NCBI GenBank assembly: GCA_017394885.1
Contig: JAFPWO010000013.1
Location: 62,001 to 126,000, forward strand
Source of the DNA: Lachnospiraceae bacterium
GTDB lineage: Bacteria; Bacillota; Clostridia; Lachnospirales; Lachnospiraceae
Length of the DNA: 64,000 nucleotides
Direction: 5' to 3'
Shown piece by piece: positions 33,871 through 50,072 of the stretch; the stretch's first letter is position 1; every line of letters starts with the position of its first letter. The notes under the pieces were generated by a model. The model was given only the letters and a program-made list of their open reading frames with translations, was not told the DNA's origin and did not search any database. The position numbers and the translations under genes were made by a program.

Positions 33871-34689
33871 TTATTTATTCTTCCACGGAATGATTCTGCC
33901 CTGAACGATGTCAAACATAAATAGAACCTCCTGCATATCCCCGGGCAGGCGCTTCCGGCACTCGTCCGTCAGCGCTTCCGGGACGCCGTAGAACGCTTCC
34001 GCGATGCTGCCCGCGATGCAGGTCAGCGTATCGCAGTCCCCGCCGAGCGAGACTGCCGTACGGATCACATCCTCAAAATCCTGCCCTTCCAGAAAGGCTG
34101 TGATCGCTTCCGGCACGGTTTCCTGACAGGATTCCACATGAGAATACGCCGGGCGGATCTCGTCGCAGGTCCGGGAAAGGTCGTACGAGAATTCGCGCAC
34201 GATATAGTTTCGGATCTCTTCTTTGCTGCTGCCGTTTCGGGCCAGCCAGATGGCCGAAGCCACTGCTTCCGCGCCTTTGATCCCCTCCGGGTGGTTATGC
34301 GTGACCTGCGCGCTGAGCACCGCCAGATGCCTTGCCCGCTCCAGGGTATCACCCAGCCAGCCGGCCGAAGAAACCCGCATCGCAGAGCCGTTTCCATAGC
34401 TTCCGTACGCCTTCATCTCGTCCGAGAACAGCCATTCCCGGAACCGCACGCCGTAGCCGGCATAGGGATACCGGCGGCCCCATTTCCGCATCGAACGTTC
34501 CAGTTCGTCGCAGATCTTCTCATCACTCAGGTCCCGGGTGTAGATCAGCGCCTGGGCTACTGCGATCGTCATCACGGTATCGTCCGTATACCCGCTCTGT
34601 TTGCTGAAAAGCGGAAAATCCTTGGTTTTCTCTCCCCGGTCAAACTCATAGGGAGCGCCGATCATATCGCCTAAAATCGCGCCGACCAT
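33871..34689 (-). CDS. ADP-ribosylglycohydrolase (DraG/ARH family)
   Basis: A 272-residue all-helical hydrolase removing ADP-ribose from proteins or nucleic acids. The two magnesium-binding motifs are visible: GDMIGAPYEF near residue 8, SGYTDDTVMT near 32, and SLGGDCDT at about 225. Its ATG overlaps the stop of the VWA gene (TGATG). With a macro-domain protein two genes upstream this forms a small ADP-ribose-handling cluster. Confidence 0.92.
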   Translation of the reverse strand: MVGAILGDMIGAPYEFDRGEKTKDFPLFSKQSGYTDDTVMTIAVAQALIYTRDLSDEKICDELERSMRKWGRRYPYAGYGVRFREWLFSDEMKAYGSYGNGSAMRVSSAGWLGDTLERARHLAVLSAQVTHNHPEGIKGAEAVASAIWLARNGSSKEEIRNYIVREFSYDLSRTCDEIRPAYSHVESCQETVPEAITAFLEGQDFEDVIRTAVSLGGDCDTLTCIAGSIAEAFYGVPEALTDECRKRLPGDMQEVLFMFDIVQGRIIPWKNK

Positions 34690-35354
34690 CAGGCATCCTC
34701 TCCCTTCTTTCCTCTCTTCTTATAGTCTTCGTCGATGCGCTTCTTCCAGCCCGCCCCGATCGGCGCCGCCGATACGCGCATCTCGCAGACGGTTTCCGCC
34801 AGGACTTCGTAATTCAGCCCCGTCCCTGCGCGGTCACTGTGGTAATTCGCGGCACGGTCGGCCCGGATCCCGAAGCGTCCCGCCGTCTCAACGGCGTCGA
34901 TATTGGCGCCGAGGAACAAAAACTCCCAGCCGTATTTTTCCTTCTGCTGCTCCACCATCTGCTTCACGCGGCTGTAGGTGTACTCCCGGCTCGCGTTTTC
35001 CAGGCCGTCCGTGGTGATCACGAAGATCGTCTTTTCCGGGCGGTCCTCCTCCCGCGCGTACCGGTGAACGTTTGCGATGTGCCGGATCGCTCCGCCGACC
35101 GCATCCAGCAGCGCCGTGCAGCCGCGCACATAATAATCCTTTTCGGTCATCTGCGGCATCTGATCCAGCGGCACGCGGTCATACAGCACCTCGGTCCGGT
35201 CGTCAAACAGTACGGTGGATACCAGGACCTCCCCTTCTGTCTCTCGCTGCTTCTTCAGCATGCCGTTGTATCCGCCGATCGTATCGCTTTCCAGCCCGCC
35301 CATGGAACCGCTCCGGTCCAGGATCATTACCAGTTCTGTACAATTCTTTTTCAT
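34689..35354 (-). CDS. VWA domain protein
   Basis: A 221-residue von Willebrand factor A domain protein. LVMILDRSGSMGG (about residues 9-21) holds a complete MIDAS D-x-S-x-S motif (Asp13, Ser15, Ser17), followed by ALLDAVGGA with a conserved later MIDAS residue region and TTDGLENAS. No membrane segment is present. The ATG at 35354 is chosen because AGGAGG lies 9 nt upstream. Its product is likely a metal-dependent protein-binding module working with the ADP-ribosylglycohydrolase to which its gene is coupled. Confidence 0.85.
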   Translation of the reverse strand: MKKNCTELVMILDRSGSMGGLESDTIGGYNGMLKKQRETEGEVLVSTVLFDDRTEVLYDRVPLDQMPQMTEKDYYVRGCTALLDAVGGAIRHIANVHRYAREEDRPEKTIFVITTDGLENASREYTYSRVKQMVEQQKEKYGWEFLFLGANIDAVETAGRFGIRADRAANYHSDRAGTGLNYEVLAETVCEMRVSAAPIGAGWKKRIDEDYKKRGKKGEDA

Positions 35355-35436
35355 TGCTTCAGGCCTCCTTGCCATCTTTGATGAGCCAAGTATAGCCTGA
35401 TCCCGCCGGGATGTGGTCGCCTGCGAAGCGACATCG

Positions 35437-36501
35437 TCAGCCGAGGATCGGCTGACGGAACTGAAACAGCAGCGCGTTCACTTCATAGATATCATAAATA
35501 CCGTTCTCGATACAGAAGCTCACGATCAGATCGGACCGGCTGTTGTTGGTGAGGGCATAGCCCGCGCTGGCCAGCAGATCCTTCGCGTCGTCCAGATTGA
35601 GCCGCAGGGCGATCGCGAGCGCGATGATCGTCCGCTTTTTGGGAATATAGTCCTCGCTGCAGCGGATCTTGGAAAAGAGCTTCCGGTCGACGTTGGCCCG
35701 CTTGTAGACCTCCGGATCGGTCATGCCGCGCTCATCGATCATGCGGAGAAGCCGCTGCTGAAAGCTTTCGCCGAGATTGTTCACGACGTCTTCCAGGGAC
35801 GGTTTTTTCGGCTTCGGTTTTGCATAAGCCGCCGCGGACGGTGCCGCCATCTCGAAGGAGACGGAACTGAGTTCTTCTCTGTAATAAAACGGCGACTCTT
35901 CCGACAGCGGGCGGCGCTCCGCCCTGCCGGGCCGGCCGGACAGCGCGCCGTATTCTTCCCTGGCCTTCGCCGCGGCATAGTTCTCATCGATGTATTCTTC
36001 GATCTGCTCCGTGAGGCCCCGGGCCGTCTGATAGGCGTCGTCGCTGAACACGACCAGGGTCACCGTTAGTTCGGATTCTTCCAGATGCTCCCGGATGACG
36101 GCCAGCGCAGTCTCCAGCGCTTTGTCCTTCGGAAAGCCGTATACCCCGGTCGCGATCAGCGGGAAAGCAATACTTTCACAGCCGAGCTGATCGGCCAGCA
36201 GCAGCGATTTCCGGTAGCAGGAGCGCAGGATCGCGAACTCTCCGTGCAGCCCGTCGGTCCAGGCCGGGCCGACCGTATGAATGATATACTTCGCCGGCAG
36301 CGCGAAAGCCGGCGTTACCGCCGCCTCCCCGGGGGCGATCCGGCCGATCTTCTTTCGCTCCGCGAGCAGCACCTCCGCTCCCGCCGCATTATAGATCGCT
36401 GCGTCCGTACCGCTCGCAAAACGCGGCTCCGGATTCGCGGTATTTACGATCGCATCCGCTTTGACTTTGGTGATATCGTTGCGAATAATACGAAAAGGCA
36501 T
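35437..36501 (-). CDS. Macro domain protein with C-terminal HTH-like domain
   Basis: A 354-residue protein. Residues 1-165 form a macro domain (IVNTANPEPRFASGTDAAIYNAAG for the ADP-ribose pocket, and FPLIATGVYGFPKDKAL for the phosphate loop). Residues 240-354 form a helical domain of the kind found in phage-like or XRE repressor tails (VYKRANVDRKLFSKIRCSEDYIPKK). The last codons overlap a hairpin (35436-35456) with an 8-bp stem, and a second stem follows, but no T-run. The protein may read or remove ADP-ribose and bind a partner or DNA. Confidence 0.88.
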   Translation of the reverse strand: MPFRIIRNDITKVKADAIVNTANPEPRFASGTDAAIYNAAGAEVLLAERKKIGRIAPGEAAVTPAFALPAKYIIHTVGPAWTDGLHGEFAILRSCYRKSLLLADQLGCESIAFPLIATGVYGFPKDKALETALAVIREHLEESELTVTLVVFSDDAYQTARGLTEQIEEYIDENYAAAKAREEYGALSGRPGRAERRPLSEESPFYYREELSSVSFEMAAPSAAAYAKPKPKKPSLEDVVNNLGESFQQRLLRMIDERGMTDPEVYKRANVDRKLFSKIRCSEDYIPKKRTIIALAIALRLNLDDAKDLLASAGYALTNNSRSDLIVSFCIENGIYDIYEVNALLFQFRQPILG

Positions 36502-43116: not shown

Positions 43117-43200
43117 TCCCCCTAAGAAGAATCGAACTTCTCTGAGCCTTAAGCTGACGGTTTTACAGACCGCCCCACCTCCATAGTGGTCTATAAGGGG
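43117..43200 (-). tRNA. Divergent tRNA-Tyr (GUA)
   Basis: An 84-nt cloverleaf. Acceptor CCCCTTA pairs with TAGGGGG, the anticodon loop CTGTAAA gives GUA, the variable arm is long (AGC-TTAA-GGCT region) as required for bacterial tRNA-Tyr, and the T arm AGAAG-TTCGATT-CTTCT is canonical. Odd points: C1-G72 instead of the usual G1-C72 of bacterial tRNA-Tyr, a short D loop (ACTATGGA) with only three sure D-stem pairs and one extra base before the anticodon stem, and no encoded CCA. It lies 3 nt after the tRNA-Glu-like gene and behind an intrinsic terminator. Confidence 0.8.
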
Positions 43201-43203
43201 TTA

Positions 43204-43276
43204 TCACACCAGCCGGGTATGATCCGGCATCTCCGCCTTGAAAGGGCGGTATCCTCACCGATTAAACGATGGTGCG
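43204..43276 (-). tRNA. Divergent tRNA-Glu (UUC)
   Basis: A 73-nt cloverleaf. Acceptor CGCACCA pairs with TGGTGTG (one wobble), the D loop has A14, G18, G19 and A21 but a D stem of weak pairs (GTTT/GGAT), the anticodon arm is CCGCC-CTTTCAA-GGCGG giving UUC, and the T stem is GCCGG/CCGGC. The T loop is ATCATAC, lacking U54 and A58 of almost all tRNAs, and the acceptor has C1-G72 where bacterial tRNA-Glu has G1. No CCA is encoded. The 5' end is only 4 nt after a terminator T-run, so no promoter of its own fits. Confidence 0.75.
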
Positions 43277-43280
43277 GCAT

Positions 43281-43320
43281 AGAAAAAGGGCGCCTCCCGG
43301 AAATCCCGAGAAGCGCCCTT
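43281..43320 (-). terminator. Intrinsic terminator between the Tyr/Glu leader and the tRNA pair (attenuator)
   Basis: AAGGGCGC and GCGCCCTT form the base of a long stem (43286-43320) continued by TTCTCGG/CCGGGAG, followed by TTTTTCT. The upper 3' arm contains CGGGAGGC (43292-43299). The same 8 nt occur in the leader frame at 43360-43367 and can pair with GCTTCTCG of the 5' arm (43307-43314), which would break the terminator. Confidence 0.85.
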
Positions 43321-43342
43321 GGCTGATATCTGCTATCTGAAC

Positions 43343-43456
43343 CTACTGATCCATTCGCAGCCTCCCGTAATTTCCGCACGAAAACGAGCCCTGTTCAAAG
43401 TACAGGGATTCGAGCTCGAACGAATATAACAAAATGGCTATGGTCATGGTGTTCAT
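43343..43456 (-). CDS. Leader peptide rich in Tyr and Glu codons, 37 residues
   Basis: ATG at 43456 follows AGGAAG, about 30 nt after the start point expected from the promoter upstream; the frame ends in TAG at 43343. Residues 11-21 read YSFELESLYFE, with two Tyr and three Glu codons in eleven, and another Tyr follows at residue 30. The two tRNAs after the terminator are tRNA-Glu and tRNA-Tyr. The frame also contains a stem-loop CCCTGT/ACAGGG (43389-43407), whose loop region covers the Tyr19-Phe-Glu21 codons, and a 12-bp palindrome TTCGAGCTCGAA. A regulatory leader is the best reading; a small membrane peptide is possible. Confidence 0.65.
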   Translation of the reverse strand: MNTMTIAILLYSFELESLYFEQGSFSCGNYGRLRMDQ

Positions 43457-43484
43457 GGTAGTAGTTTCTTCCTTTCCAGGGCTT

Positions 43485-43526
43485 ATTATAGCAGGCTGAA
43501 GCAGGTTGTCAATCAACCGGCAGTTA
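43485..43526 (-). promoter_or_regulatory. Promoter and 13-bp palindromic operator of the leader/tRNA unit
   Basis: TTGACA (43507-43512), 16 bp, TATAAT (43485-43490) on the minus strand. One base upstream of the -35 box lies TAACTGCCGGTTG (43514-43526). The rtcB promoter has CAACTGCCGGTTG in the same place with the same 16-bp spacer. Confidence 0.82.
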
Positions 43527-43530
43527 ATTC

Positions 43531-47143: not shown

Positions 47144-48391
47144 TTAAATACCCGACCCGGGTCCTTTCTTCCACGGCAGCTGGTCGTCGGAGGCCTTGAA
47201 GTTGTAGACCGGCTTCATGACCTCGATGATGTCCACGGAGTCGCGGATCACATCGATGATGTCCTCCAGGGACTTGTACGCCATCGGCGCCTCGTCCAGC
47301 GTCTCCGCGCTGACGGAGGTGGTGAAGATGCCTTTCATGGACTCCCGGTACTCGGCCATGCTGAGGTTCTTTTTGGCCGCGGAACGGGACATGATCCGGC
47401 CGGCGCCGTGCGGCGCGGAGTAGTTCCATTCCGGGTTCCCGCGGCCGACTGCCAGGACGGAGCCGTCCCGCATGTTGATGGGGATCAGCACCTTCTCTCC
47501 TTCATGTGCCGCGATCGCGCCTTTCCGCAGGATCATCTCCTCCGTATCAATATAGTTGTGGATCGTGTGGAACGCCTCCAGGGCTTTCATCCCGGTACGC
47601 TCCAGAATGATCTCCGCCATCTTCTCGCGGCTGCGGCGCGCAAAGCGCTGGCAGATCTCCACGTCGTGCAGATAGTCCGCCAGATACTCGCCCCACAGCC
47701 AGCAGATGTCCTTCGGCGTGTCCAGATCCTGTGTCTTATACTCGTGATCCAGCTGCTTTAACGCTGCCTGGATCTCGCTGCGGCGGCCTTCTTCCTTGTA
47801 TGCGCGGATGATCTCCTCGCGCTGCCGGAAATACTCTTCCTTTCCCATATGCAGGTCGATGGCCAGCTGCTGGTAGATCTCCGCCACCTGCTTGCCCAGG
47901 TTCCGGCTGCCGGAGTGAATGATCAGATAAAACGTGCCGTCGGAGGCCTTCTCCACTTCAATGAAGTGATTCCCGCCGCCCAGCGTCCCCAGGGAACGCT
48001 CCAGCCGTTTGGTATCCTTCAGTTCGCGGTAGCACCTCAGATCCGTCAGGTCAAAGTGCTCCGTCCGCCCCTCCCAGACGTTCATCCCGGAGGGGATATA
48101 GTGGCAGACCGCATCGATCAGCTTGAAGTCCGGCTCCGTGACGTCCAGCTTCACGGTATACATGCCGCAGCCGATGTCCACGCCGACGATGTTCGGGCAG
48201 GCCTTATCGATAACGGTCATGGTGGTCCCGATGGTGCAGCCCTTCCCGGCGTGCACGTCGGGCATGATGCGCACGCGGCTTCCCTCTGTCAGGGCATAGT
48301 CGCACATATTGCGGATCTGCTCGATCGCCTCCTCTTCGATCACCTTGGCAAAGCAGATGGCGGTGGTGACTTTTCCTTTGATCTCAAACAT
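47144..48391 (-). CDS. rtcB: RtcB-type RNA ligase
   Basis: A 415-residue RtcB protein, joining 2',3'-cyclic phosphate or 3'-phosphate ends to 5'-OH ends with GTP and Mn2+. Metal-binding motifs are PDVHAGKG (44-51) and VDIGCGM (71-77, Cys75), then GTLGGGNHFIEV near 148, and SGSRNLGKQ. The guanylylated His should lie near the C terminus in the APHGAGR stretch. It is of the shorter bacterial type. The start at 48391, with AAAGGA 9 nt upstream, agrees with the promoter at 48418-48445; an ATG at 48415 would lie at or before the transcription start. No archease or PrfH gene adjoins it. Confidence 0.94.
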   Translation of the reverse strand: MFEIKGKVTTAICFAKVIEEEAIEQIRNMCDYALTEGSRVRIMPDVHAGKGCTIGTTMTVIDKACPNIVGVDIGCGMYTVKLDVTEPDFKLIDAVCHYIPSGMNVWEGRTEHFDLTDLRCYRELKDTKRLERSLGTLGGGNHFIEVEKASDGTFYLIIHSGSRNLGKQVAEIYQQLAIDLHMGKEEYFRQREEIIRAYKEEGRRSEIQAALKQLDHEYKTQDLDTPKDICWLWGEYLADYLHDVEICQRFARRSREKMAEIILERTGMKALEAFHTIHNYIDTEEMILRKGAIAAHEGEKVLIPINMRDGSVLAVGRGNPEWNYSAPHGAGRIMSRSAAKKNLSMAEYRESMKGIFTTSVSAETLDEAPMAYKSLEDIIDVIRDSVDIIEVMKPVYNFKASDDQLPWKKGPGSGI

Positions 48392-48417
48392 GGCTTTCCA
48401 TCCTTTCCCTGCCATAC

Positions 48418-48459
48418 AGGATAGCAGGATGCATCACGCTGTCAACCAACCGGCAGTTG
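48418..48459 (-). promoter_or_regulatory. rtcB promoter with the same palindromic operator as the tRNA unit
   Basis: TTGACA (48440-48445), 16 bp, TATCCT (48418-48423) on the minus strand, with the complete palindrome CAACTGCCGGTTG (48447-48459) one base upstream of the -35 box. Position next to -35 suits an activator, though repression is possible. Confidence 0.8.
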
Positions 48460-48485
48460 AATACCGGCGCCGTCCTCCTCTCTGC

Positions 48486-49440: not shown

Positions 49441-49995
49441 TCATTTCTCTTCCCGCTTCCGCAGATACGCCGCCGGGACGCGCTTCGTCAGCCATACCTT
49501 GTTCACGGAGAGATAGAACACATATCCGTCCGCCGCCATCTTCGCGCAGTCGACTTCATATACCACGGGCCGCCCGTGACGGCTGCCCACCTTTACTGCC
49601 GTCTCCACGTCCGAGGACAAGTGCACGTACAGACGGCTCTTCGGGATCAGGCCTTCGCGGTCGATTGAGGACGCGAACTTCTCCCCGGTGCCGTGATACA
49701 GCACGTCCGGCGGCGCCTTTTGCTCCAACTCCACGTCCACCGGGATGGAATGCCCCTGGTTGGCGCGGATCAGGCTGTGATCCGCATTGAATGAGTATCG
49801 CTGCTTGTTGTTGCTGCGGACGATCTCCTCCAGCGTCTCCCGGTCCAGGTGATAATTTCCTGTACGGTTCACGCCACCTATCAATGCGTCCACTTCCGCC
49901 CAGCCGTGCTCATCCAGCGAGATGCCCGCGGCTTCCGGATGGTGCCGCAGGATCAGGGAAAGAAACTTACCGGTTTTGACAAGATCGACTGCCAT
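49441..49995 (-). CDS. kptA: RNA 2'-phosphotransferase KptA/Tpt1
   Basis: A 184-residue protein of the KptA/Tpt1 family, which moves an internal RNA 2'-phosphate to NAD+, giving ADP-ribose 1'',2''-cyclic phosphate. Typical motifs are FLSLILRHHPEAAGI (11-25), IRANQGHSI with the conserved His, PDVLYHGTG, and the Arg/His residues in LYVHLSSD and VGSRHGRPVV. Bacterial KptA normally has no known ligation pathway that leaves a 2'-phosphate. The start at 49995 lacks an ideal ribosome site; ATG at 50013 is the alternative. Confidence 0.93.
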   Translation of the reverse strand: MAVDLVKTGKFLSLILRHHPEAAGISLDEHGWAEVDALIGGVNRTGNYHLDRETLEEIVRSNNKQRYSFNADHSLIRANQGHSIPVDVELEQKAPPDVLYHGTGEKFASSIDREGLIPKSRLYVHLSSDVETAVKVGSRHGRPVVYEVDCAKMAADGYVFYLSVNKVWLTKRVPAAYLRKREEK

Positions 49996-50032
49996 GGTGT
50001 GGATCATCTCCATCAAGTGCTGCAAATAATGC

Positions 50033-50072
50033 AAGAGTTGCCGGGAAAGGTTTCCAGGCAACTCTTATGATA
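50033..50072 (-). promoter_or_regulatory. Extended -10 element and inverted repeat before kptA
   Basis: TGCTATCAT (-10 box TATCAT at 50067-50072, with extended TG) is followed directly by AAGAGTTGCC, 14 nt, GGCAACTCTT (50033-50066), a perfect 10-bp inverted repeat. If transcription starts near 50060 the repeat would cover the start site and could be an operator; if it starts earlier it would be an RNA hairpin. Confidence 0.5.

Follow-up and report, generated by a model that had tools for sequence, protein, structure and literature searches.

A probable ribosome-mediated attenuator controlling backup tRNA genes tied to an RtcB RNA-repair locus in Lachnospiraceae

There is no consensus on what the spare tRNA arrays of bacteria and phages are for, and their control is poorly understood. 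The locus considered here raises the question of what role a short open reading frame and a strong terminator play directly ahead of two tRNA genes, both of which have a second copy elsewhere in the same genome. The window, i.e., the whole stretch of DNA analysed, is a 64-kb section of a 267-kb contig from a Lachnospiraceae genome of 2.2 Mb; it is chromosomal, and the majority of its genes are chromosomal in appearance. On the minus strand a promoter is followed by a 37-codon ORF, a strong terminator, tRNA-Glu and tRNA-Tyr, with a spacing of 4 nt between the T-run and tRNA-Glu. The original prediction, which placed all these elements correctly, interpreted them as an attenuator in which a ribosome reading Tyr and Glu codons controls the two tRNA genes, and it proposed folding of the leader and comparison of homologues as checks. 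The features of the locus are as follows.

43485..43512, minus strand: sigma-70 promoter TTGACA-16-TATAAT, matching the consensus at 12/12 positions
43507..43527, minus strand: imperfect repeat TTAACTGCCGGTTGA, which resembles an operator and overlaps with the -35 box TTGACA
43468..43475, minus strand: ribosome-binding site AAAGGAAG, assigned by sequence; GAAAGGA is kept ahead of the leaders of other genera
43343..43456, minus strand: leader ORF of 37 codons, MNTMTIAILLYSFELESLYFEQGSFSCGNYGRLRMDQ, alignable with leaders of other genera
43391..43432, minus strand: sensor codons 9-22, LLYSFELESLYFEQ, with Glu, Tyr, Leu or Phe at 11/14 residues (p=0.001); antitermination predicted upon stalling
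43419..43456, minus strand: region 1, predicted to pair with region 2 when no ribosome is present (-25.6 kcal/mol); co-evolution across leaders
43356..43374, minus strand: region 2, the antiterminator strand GAAATTACGGGAGGCTGCG, predicted to pair with the terminator 5' arm and loop (-17.1 kcal/mol)
43286..43320, minus strand: regions 3 and 4, forming the intrinsic terminator (-28.5 kcal/mol), with the T-run after it
43204..43276, minus strand: tRNA-Glu(UUC), supernumerary; second tRNA-Glu(UUC) elsewhere in the genome
43116..43200, minus strand: tRNA-Tyr(GUA), supernumerary; second tRNA-Tyr elsewhere in the genome
42855..43085, minus strand: small Cro/C1-type HTH gene downstream of the tRNAs (Pfam HTH_26/HTH_3, just under the cut-offs)
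47144..48415, minus strand: rtcB RNA ligase gene, upstream (Pfam RtcB, 1.8e-57)
48440..48460, minus strand: second operator/promoter copy ahead of rtcB, TCAACTGCCGGTTGGTTGACA, with 2 mismatches
49441..50061, minus strand: upstream gene for a Tpt1/KptA RNA 2'-phosphotransferase, an RNA-repair neighbour (Pfam PTS_2-RNA, 3.3e-47)

In attenuation of the trp/his type, a leader ORF contains regulatory codons, the RNA can form mutually exclusive 1:2, 2:3 and 3:4 pairings, and a stalled ribosome prevents formation of an intrinsic terminator. The present leaders share these features as judged from sequence and folding, i.e., a translatable ORF with a ribosome site (translation itself is inferred only), the alternative pairings, which are supported by pairing tests and folds, and an intrinsic terminator before the regulated genes. 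In the window, leader codons 30-33 contain CGGGAGGC, a copy of part of the terminator 3' arm that pairs with GCUUCUCG. This copy was part of the original prediction, and the full antiterminator duplex, composed of GAAAUUACGGGAGGCUGCG and GGCGCUUCUCGGGAUUU, is longer than had been claimed. The proposed folding of the leader gave z = -5.0 compared with shuffled sequences, with the antiterminator and terminator energies given above.

From this architecture a mechanism can be outlined. Without translation, region 1 (codons 1-13) would pair with region 2 (approximately codons 27-38) and the terminator could form. A ribosome that completes the leader would cover region 2, again allowing the terminator to form. 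When the needed tRNA is missing, cleaved or uncharged, a ribosome would stall on the sensor codons (approximately 8-26) and open region 1, such that the free region 2 would capture the terminator 5' arm and the tRNA genes would be transcribed. With sensor codons being those of the tRNAs encoded next, each array segment would be induced by a shortage of its own products. A simple folding model is consistent with this scheme: a stall at window codons 2-26 gives a probability of 0.83 that upstream RNA captures the terminator arm, as compared to about 0.2-0.5 for a stall from codon 27 on, and the mean over 44 leaders displays the same fall in predicted capture near codons 28-32. In the absence of a ribosome the model yields an antiterminator pairing of 0.56 in the window, which indicates that basal termination may be leaky.

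In the homologue comparison the leader frame is conserved across genera, and 34 related leaders exhibit the co-evolving pairing of a trp/his-type attenuator. Predicted pairing energies were compared for 31 non-redundant leaders, each combined with its own or with foreign partners. For region 2 (ORF nt ~80-125) and the terminator 5' arm and loop, the energy was -13.1 kcal/mol with own partners and -10.7 kcal/mol with foreign partners (0/20,000 shuffles), while the pairing of region 1 (nt 0-35) with region 2 gave -14.3 and -9.6 kcal/mol, respectively (0/5,000 shuffles). Both preferences persisted when the window genus was left out, and most other leader segments had no preference for their own partner. 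A preference was likewise seen between ORF nt 0-40 and the terminator arm (p below 0.001), which remains unexplained and may reflect lineage effects. The leaders share descent; hence the shuffle p-values are not exact probabilities. Explicit duplexes were derived for twelve leaders.

The leader family was found by a search for RtcB over Lachnospiraceae, followed by inspection of the upstream DNA. The leader diverges too fast to serve as a query, and searches were therefore anchored on rtcB, the operator and the HTH protein. Diverged leaders were identified in about 30 other Lachnospiraceae genomes ahead of rtcB and tRNA arrays. They share, in many genera, a module that starts from a palindrome, TTATACYASNRGTATAATGACA, at the -35 box and a GAAAGGA ribosome site, continues with a reading frame of some 37-56 codons and a strong terminator, and then has tRNA genes and/or rtcB and the HTH gene, and the leader peptides, including that of the window, can be aligned across genera. 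Many of the leaders stand before rtcB without any tRNA, which implies that the leader belongs, as a module, to a regulon for RNA repair and the replacement of tRNAs. The earlier view of a device private to two tRNA genes is corrected in this respect, while its core, an attenuating leader ahead of both genes, holds.

At Rfam gathering scores only the tRNAs of the window and its relatives were recognized, the leaders being covered by no family. When the leader was compared, both as DNA and translated, with phage and plasmid collections, and a strict leader pattern with IMG/VR, nothing useful emerged. RtcB relatives in other families of the order had no convincing leader, and the open-access literature contained no report of tRNA genes under the control of a leader peptide (subscription papers were outside the search). 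The leader family is absent from Rfam and from the open papers searched, and its novelty is provisional.

Within the window genus the leader is present in only 3/16 genomes, and the complete module of leader, operator and terminator is conserved in the two relatives, G011 and G013. The leader-bearing records of this genus are Lachnospiraceae metagenome-assembled genomes from goat omasum. A large LRR-protein gene separates rtcB from the leader in the window; in G013 rtcB lies directly before the leader and in G011 it is one ORF away. In G011 the leader is followed by a run of 14 tRNA genes that also includes the HTH gene, while in G013 an array of 17 tRNAs, starting with Glu, Tyr, Leu, Leu and Phe, is found on a contig other than that of the leader, apparently split from it by an insertion. 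The window retains only two tRNAs.

This difference in array length bears on what the window leader reads. Residues Y11, E14, E16, Y19 and E21 are all present, as originally noted, but the proposed specificity for Tyr and Glu is not borne out by the window alone, where these two amino acids make up 5/24 residues (p=0.35) or, within codons 9-22, 5/14 residues (p=0.06). Codons 9-22, a range picked after inspection of the data, are mostly Leu, Tyr, Phe and Glu and match the first five tRNAs of the G013 array at 11/14 positions (p=0.001). Judged from these codons, the window leader is not Tyr/Glu-specific and fits the fuller array of G013. The simplest reading is that the window locus is the attenuator of a formerly longer array, now shortened. 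The idea that the leaders are simply enriched in the codons of one or two amino acids was also considered and dropped; overall, Glu was found at 0.98x as compared to rtcB.

Short ORFs and strong hairpins are common, and with the weak Tyr/Glu enrichment in the window one may ask whether a chance ORF merely lies beside the ordinary terminator of an upstream gene, without any regulatory role. This explanation is barely credible; the leader has its own promoter, the ORF is conserved across genera, the pairing co-evolves, and none of the other tRNA clusters of the genome has such a leader, at least within the loci examined. It is already contradicted by the pairing tests and by the codon-match tests, to which we now turn.

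The operator search also yielded separate arrays with their own leaders. For example, the L224 leader, MRSTMMMREMNMRRL..., stands ahead of Met, Met, Arg, Arg; that of L217, ...LSSSYVLYLSLLLYGS..., ahead of Tyr, four Leu and two Ser; that of L270, ...FNQISQQSALFCKSQQGFKF..., ahead of Phe, Ile, Ser, Lys, Cys, Gln, Gln; and that of L127, ...NKQFNNKQFKQFCKKQK..., ahead of Gln, Cys, Phe, Lys, Lys, Gln, Asn. Over 18 non-redundant leader-array pairs the fraction of matching residues at codons 4-27 was 0.347, compared to 0.227 for shuffled arrays (0/50,000 permutations), with no excess at later codons (p=0.42) and with p=0.0007 after removal of the six most striking pairs. Because the hypothesis was formed on part of these data, more pairs were collected. 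Seven added pairs, from arrays found via the HTH protein or re-read in earlier loci, gave an exact p=0.0002 and no match at later codons. Eight leaders on IMG/VR contigs gave an exact p=0.00005 (controls, p=0.90); this set is not wholly independent, as L341a, L341b and L338 resemble cellular leaders already seen. For the 25 cellular pairs combined, 38% of residues matched as compared to 24% for shuffled arrays (0/100,000; z=7.8). No excess is seen from codon 29 on; it is confined to codons 8-27, the part of the leader at which, according to the folding model, a stall sets region 2 free. Several leaders are found in long arrays, most of which fit the next segment (L341, L353); mismatching leaders also exist (L338, L277 and, when the whole array is considered, L221). 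The fit of regulatory codons to regulated genes is thus seen for the family and is weak in the window alone.

These data also bear on a less specific reading, namely that any slowing of the ribosome, by antibiotics or ribosome damage, leads to read-through irrespective of codon identity. The same leader family is found before rtcB without tRNAs, the residues of the leader peptide are partly dictated by RNA pairing, and the trn operon and rtcB of Anabaena are induced by translation inhibitors (PMC10272220). However, such a general sensor does not account for codon-to-tRNA matching in three sets at the sensor codons only, or for successive leaders of one array that fit their own segments (L341, L353), and we regard it as unlikely. 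In its pure form it was favored early, since leaders also stand before rtcB without tRNAs, but the codon-match tests led to its rejection.

We consider it very probable that the leader acts as a transcription attenuator, operated by the ribosome, for a backup tRNA array tied to an RtcB RNA-repair locus; with the co-evolving pairings and the codon matching, the central claim of the original prediction, a leader that reads the amino acids of its tRNA genes, is upheld. Architecture, pairing and codon matching are established at the level of sequence. That ribosome stalling is the signal is inferred from established knowledge of attenuation, as there are no data on transcripts, termination, tRNA charging or expression. 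The signal sensed is probably, again by inference, the loss of usable tRNA. Its usual cause is inferred to be damage to tRNA (from anticodon nucleases or similar stress) and not a lack of amino acids, because an extra tRNA is useless without its amino acid and because RtcB and Tpt1/KptA act on broken RNA.

A further explanation is that the operator and the HTH protein constitute the true switch, where the leader and terminator merely reduce basal expression. The family operator is conserved and found mostly at these loci, in 68/397 Lachnospiraceae genomes with a reversed-pattern control near zero, and two arrays have the operator without a leader (L219, L246). We find this explanation very improbable, as neither the codon matching nor the co-evolution of the 1:2 and 2:3 pairings follows from it. 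The window operator is invariant across the genus' three leader-bearing genomes, except for two central bases, and exactly two sites of the genus-specific operator are found in the window genome, before the leader and before rtcB. Homologues of the HTH gene reside inside arrays in other genera. We infer that the small HTH protein represses the promoter; TTATACYASNRGTATAA and TTAACYNCCGGTTGA are putative sites for this protein.

The window genus operator, TTAACYNCCGGTTGA, differs from that of other genera, and its HTH protein shares no more than 42-52% identity with those of the other genera, as would be expected if the two had changed together. In L219 and L246 the operator is located directly before tRNA-Arg and tRNA-Tyr without a leader, i.e., the promoter element can occur without the attenuator.

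Arrays with leaders of this kind are not restricted to cellular chromosomes. Among the virus contigs with matching leaders, L354 (IMG/VR, 253 kb) harbors endolysin, head and head-tail adaptor genes and L353 (IMG/VR, 55 kb) a match to the terminase large subunit (both by PHROGs), which places at least some arrays on phages; with Pfam, no TerL was recognized on the virus contigs. Some of these contigs are jumbo phage. L353 and L354 contain about 26 tRNA genes, segmented, with separate matching leaders and the same small HTH gene; three leaders were found on L353 and one on L354.

It is likely that backup arrays of Lachnospiraceae and jumbo phages are organized in segments, each under a leader that lists its own isotypes, such that lost tRNAs are detected and exactly replaced while RtcB repair is turned on. 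A leader that reads the same tRNAs as it releases would give such arrays the role of replacing unusable tRNAs and would bring the supply of tRNAs and the repair of RNA within the scope of classical attenuation. From the codons of a leader one can predict the tRNAs whose loss should induce its array, and the leader signature can be searched for in other tRNA arrays.

Several known systems resemble the present one in part. In classical trp/his attenuation the regulated genes make the sensed amino acid, which is not the case here, where tRNA genes, rtcB and the small HTH gene are downstream and RNA repair rather than amino-acid biosynthesis is controlled. Amino-acid synthesis typifies the classical examples and is not part of the attenuation mechanism itself. 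A second difference is that the present sensor carries codons of several amino acids matching a tRNA set. T-box riboswitches, which are common in Firmicutes, also adjust transcription read-through to the state of tRNA, but they sense uncharged tRNA by direct RNA binding, without translation, and neither the window nor its relatives matched the T-box covariance model at Rfam gathering scores.

In Anabaena, a long operon of supernumerary tRNAs, trn, is silent until translation is disturbed and is repressed together with rtcB by TrcR (PMC10272220). The likeness lies in a supernumerary tRNA operon linked to rtcB, which in Anabaena is co-regulated with rtcB and induced by translation inhibitors; G011 and G013 have 14 and 17 tRNAs, and the window only two, each with a second copy elsewhere. 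The Anabaena repressor, TrcR, is an RHH protein, whereas a leader attenuator and a Cro/C1-type HTH protein are found here, and the word stems attenuat- and leader are absent from the paper (PMC10272220). The rsr-yrlBA-rtcBA operon of Salmonella is an RNA-repair operon that, as is inferred here, is turned on by damaged tRNA, via RtcR (PMC7790460). In contrast to the present leaders, the sensor is a CARF-domain activator that binds tRNA fragments, not a leader ORF, and the abstract describes no tRNA array. In neither system is a leader ORF in use, as far as the accessible text of the two sources describes (PMC10272220, PMC7790460).

Further observations were made in passing. Operators ending TTCAATGACA mostly have no array downstream. 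A related operator class, TTATACTACAAGTTCAATGACA, occurs in L225, L228, L230, L234, L239 and others, sometimes several times per contig, and is mostly not followed by a tRNA array. In L319 (minus strand), L317 (near 3521) and L266 the gene immediately after a leader of this type is the small HTH gene, and no tRNA was found; Asn, His and Tyr are highly abundant in the leader of L319. In the window, positions 33871-36501 contain adjacent genes that resemble those for an ADP-ribosylglycohydrolase (judged by eye), a VWA protein and a macro-domain protein, and similar ADP-ribosylglycohydrolase-like and VWA genes are found about 14 kb beyond the array in G013. A DUF2828/DUF7788 protein, the role of which is unknown, is repeatedly located beside rtcB and tRNA arrays (L019:16185-17723, L226:3384-4850, L217:1374-2843).
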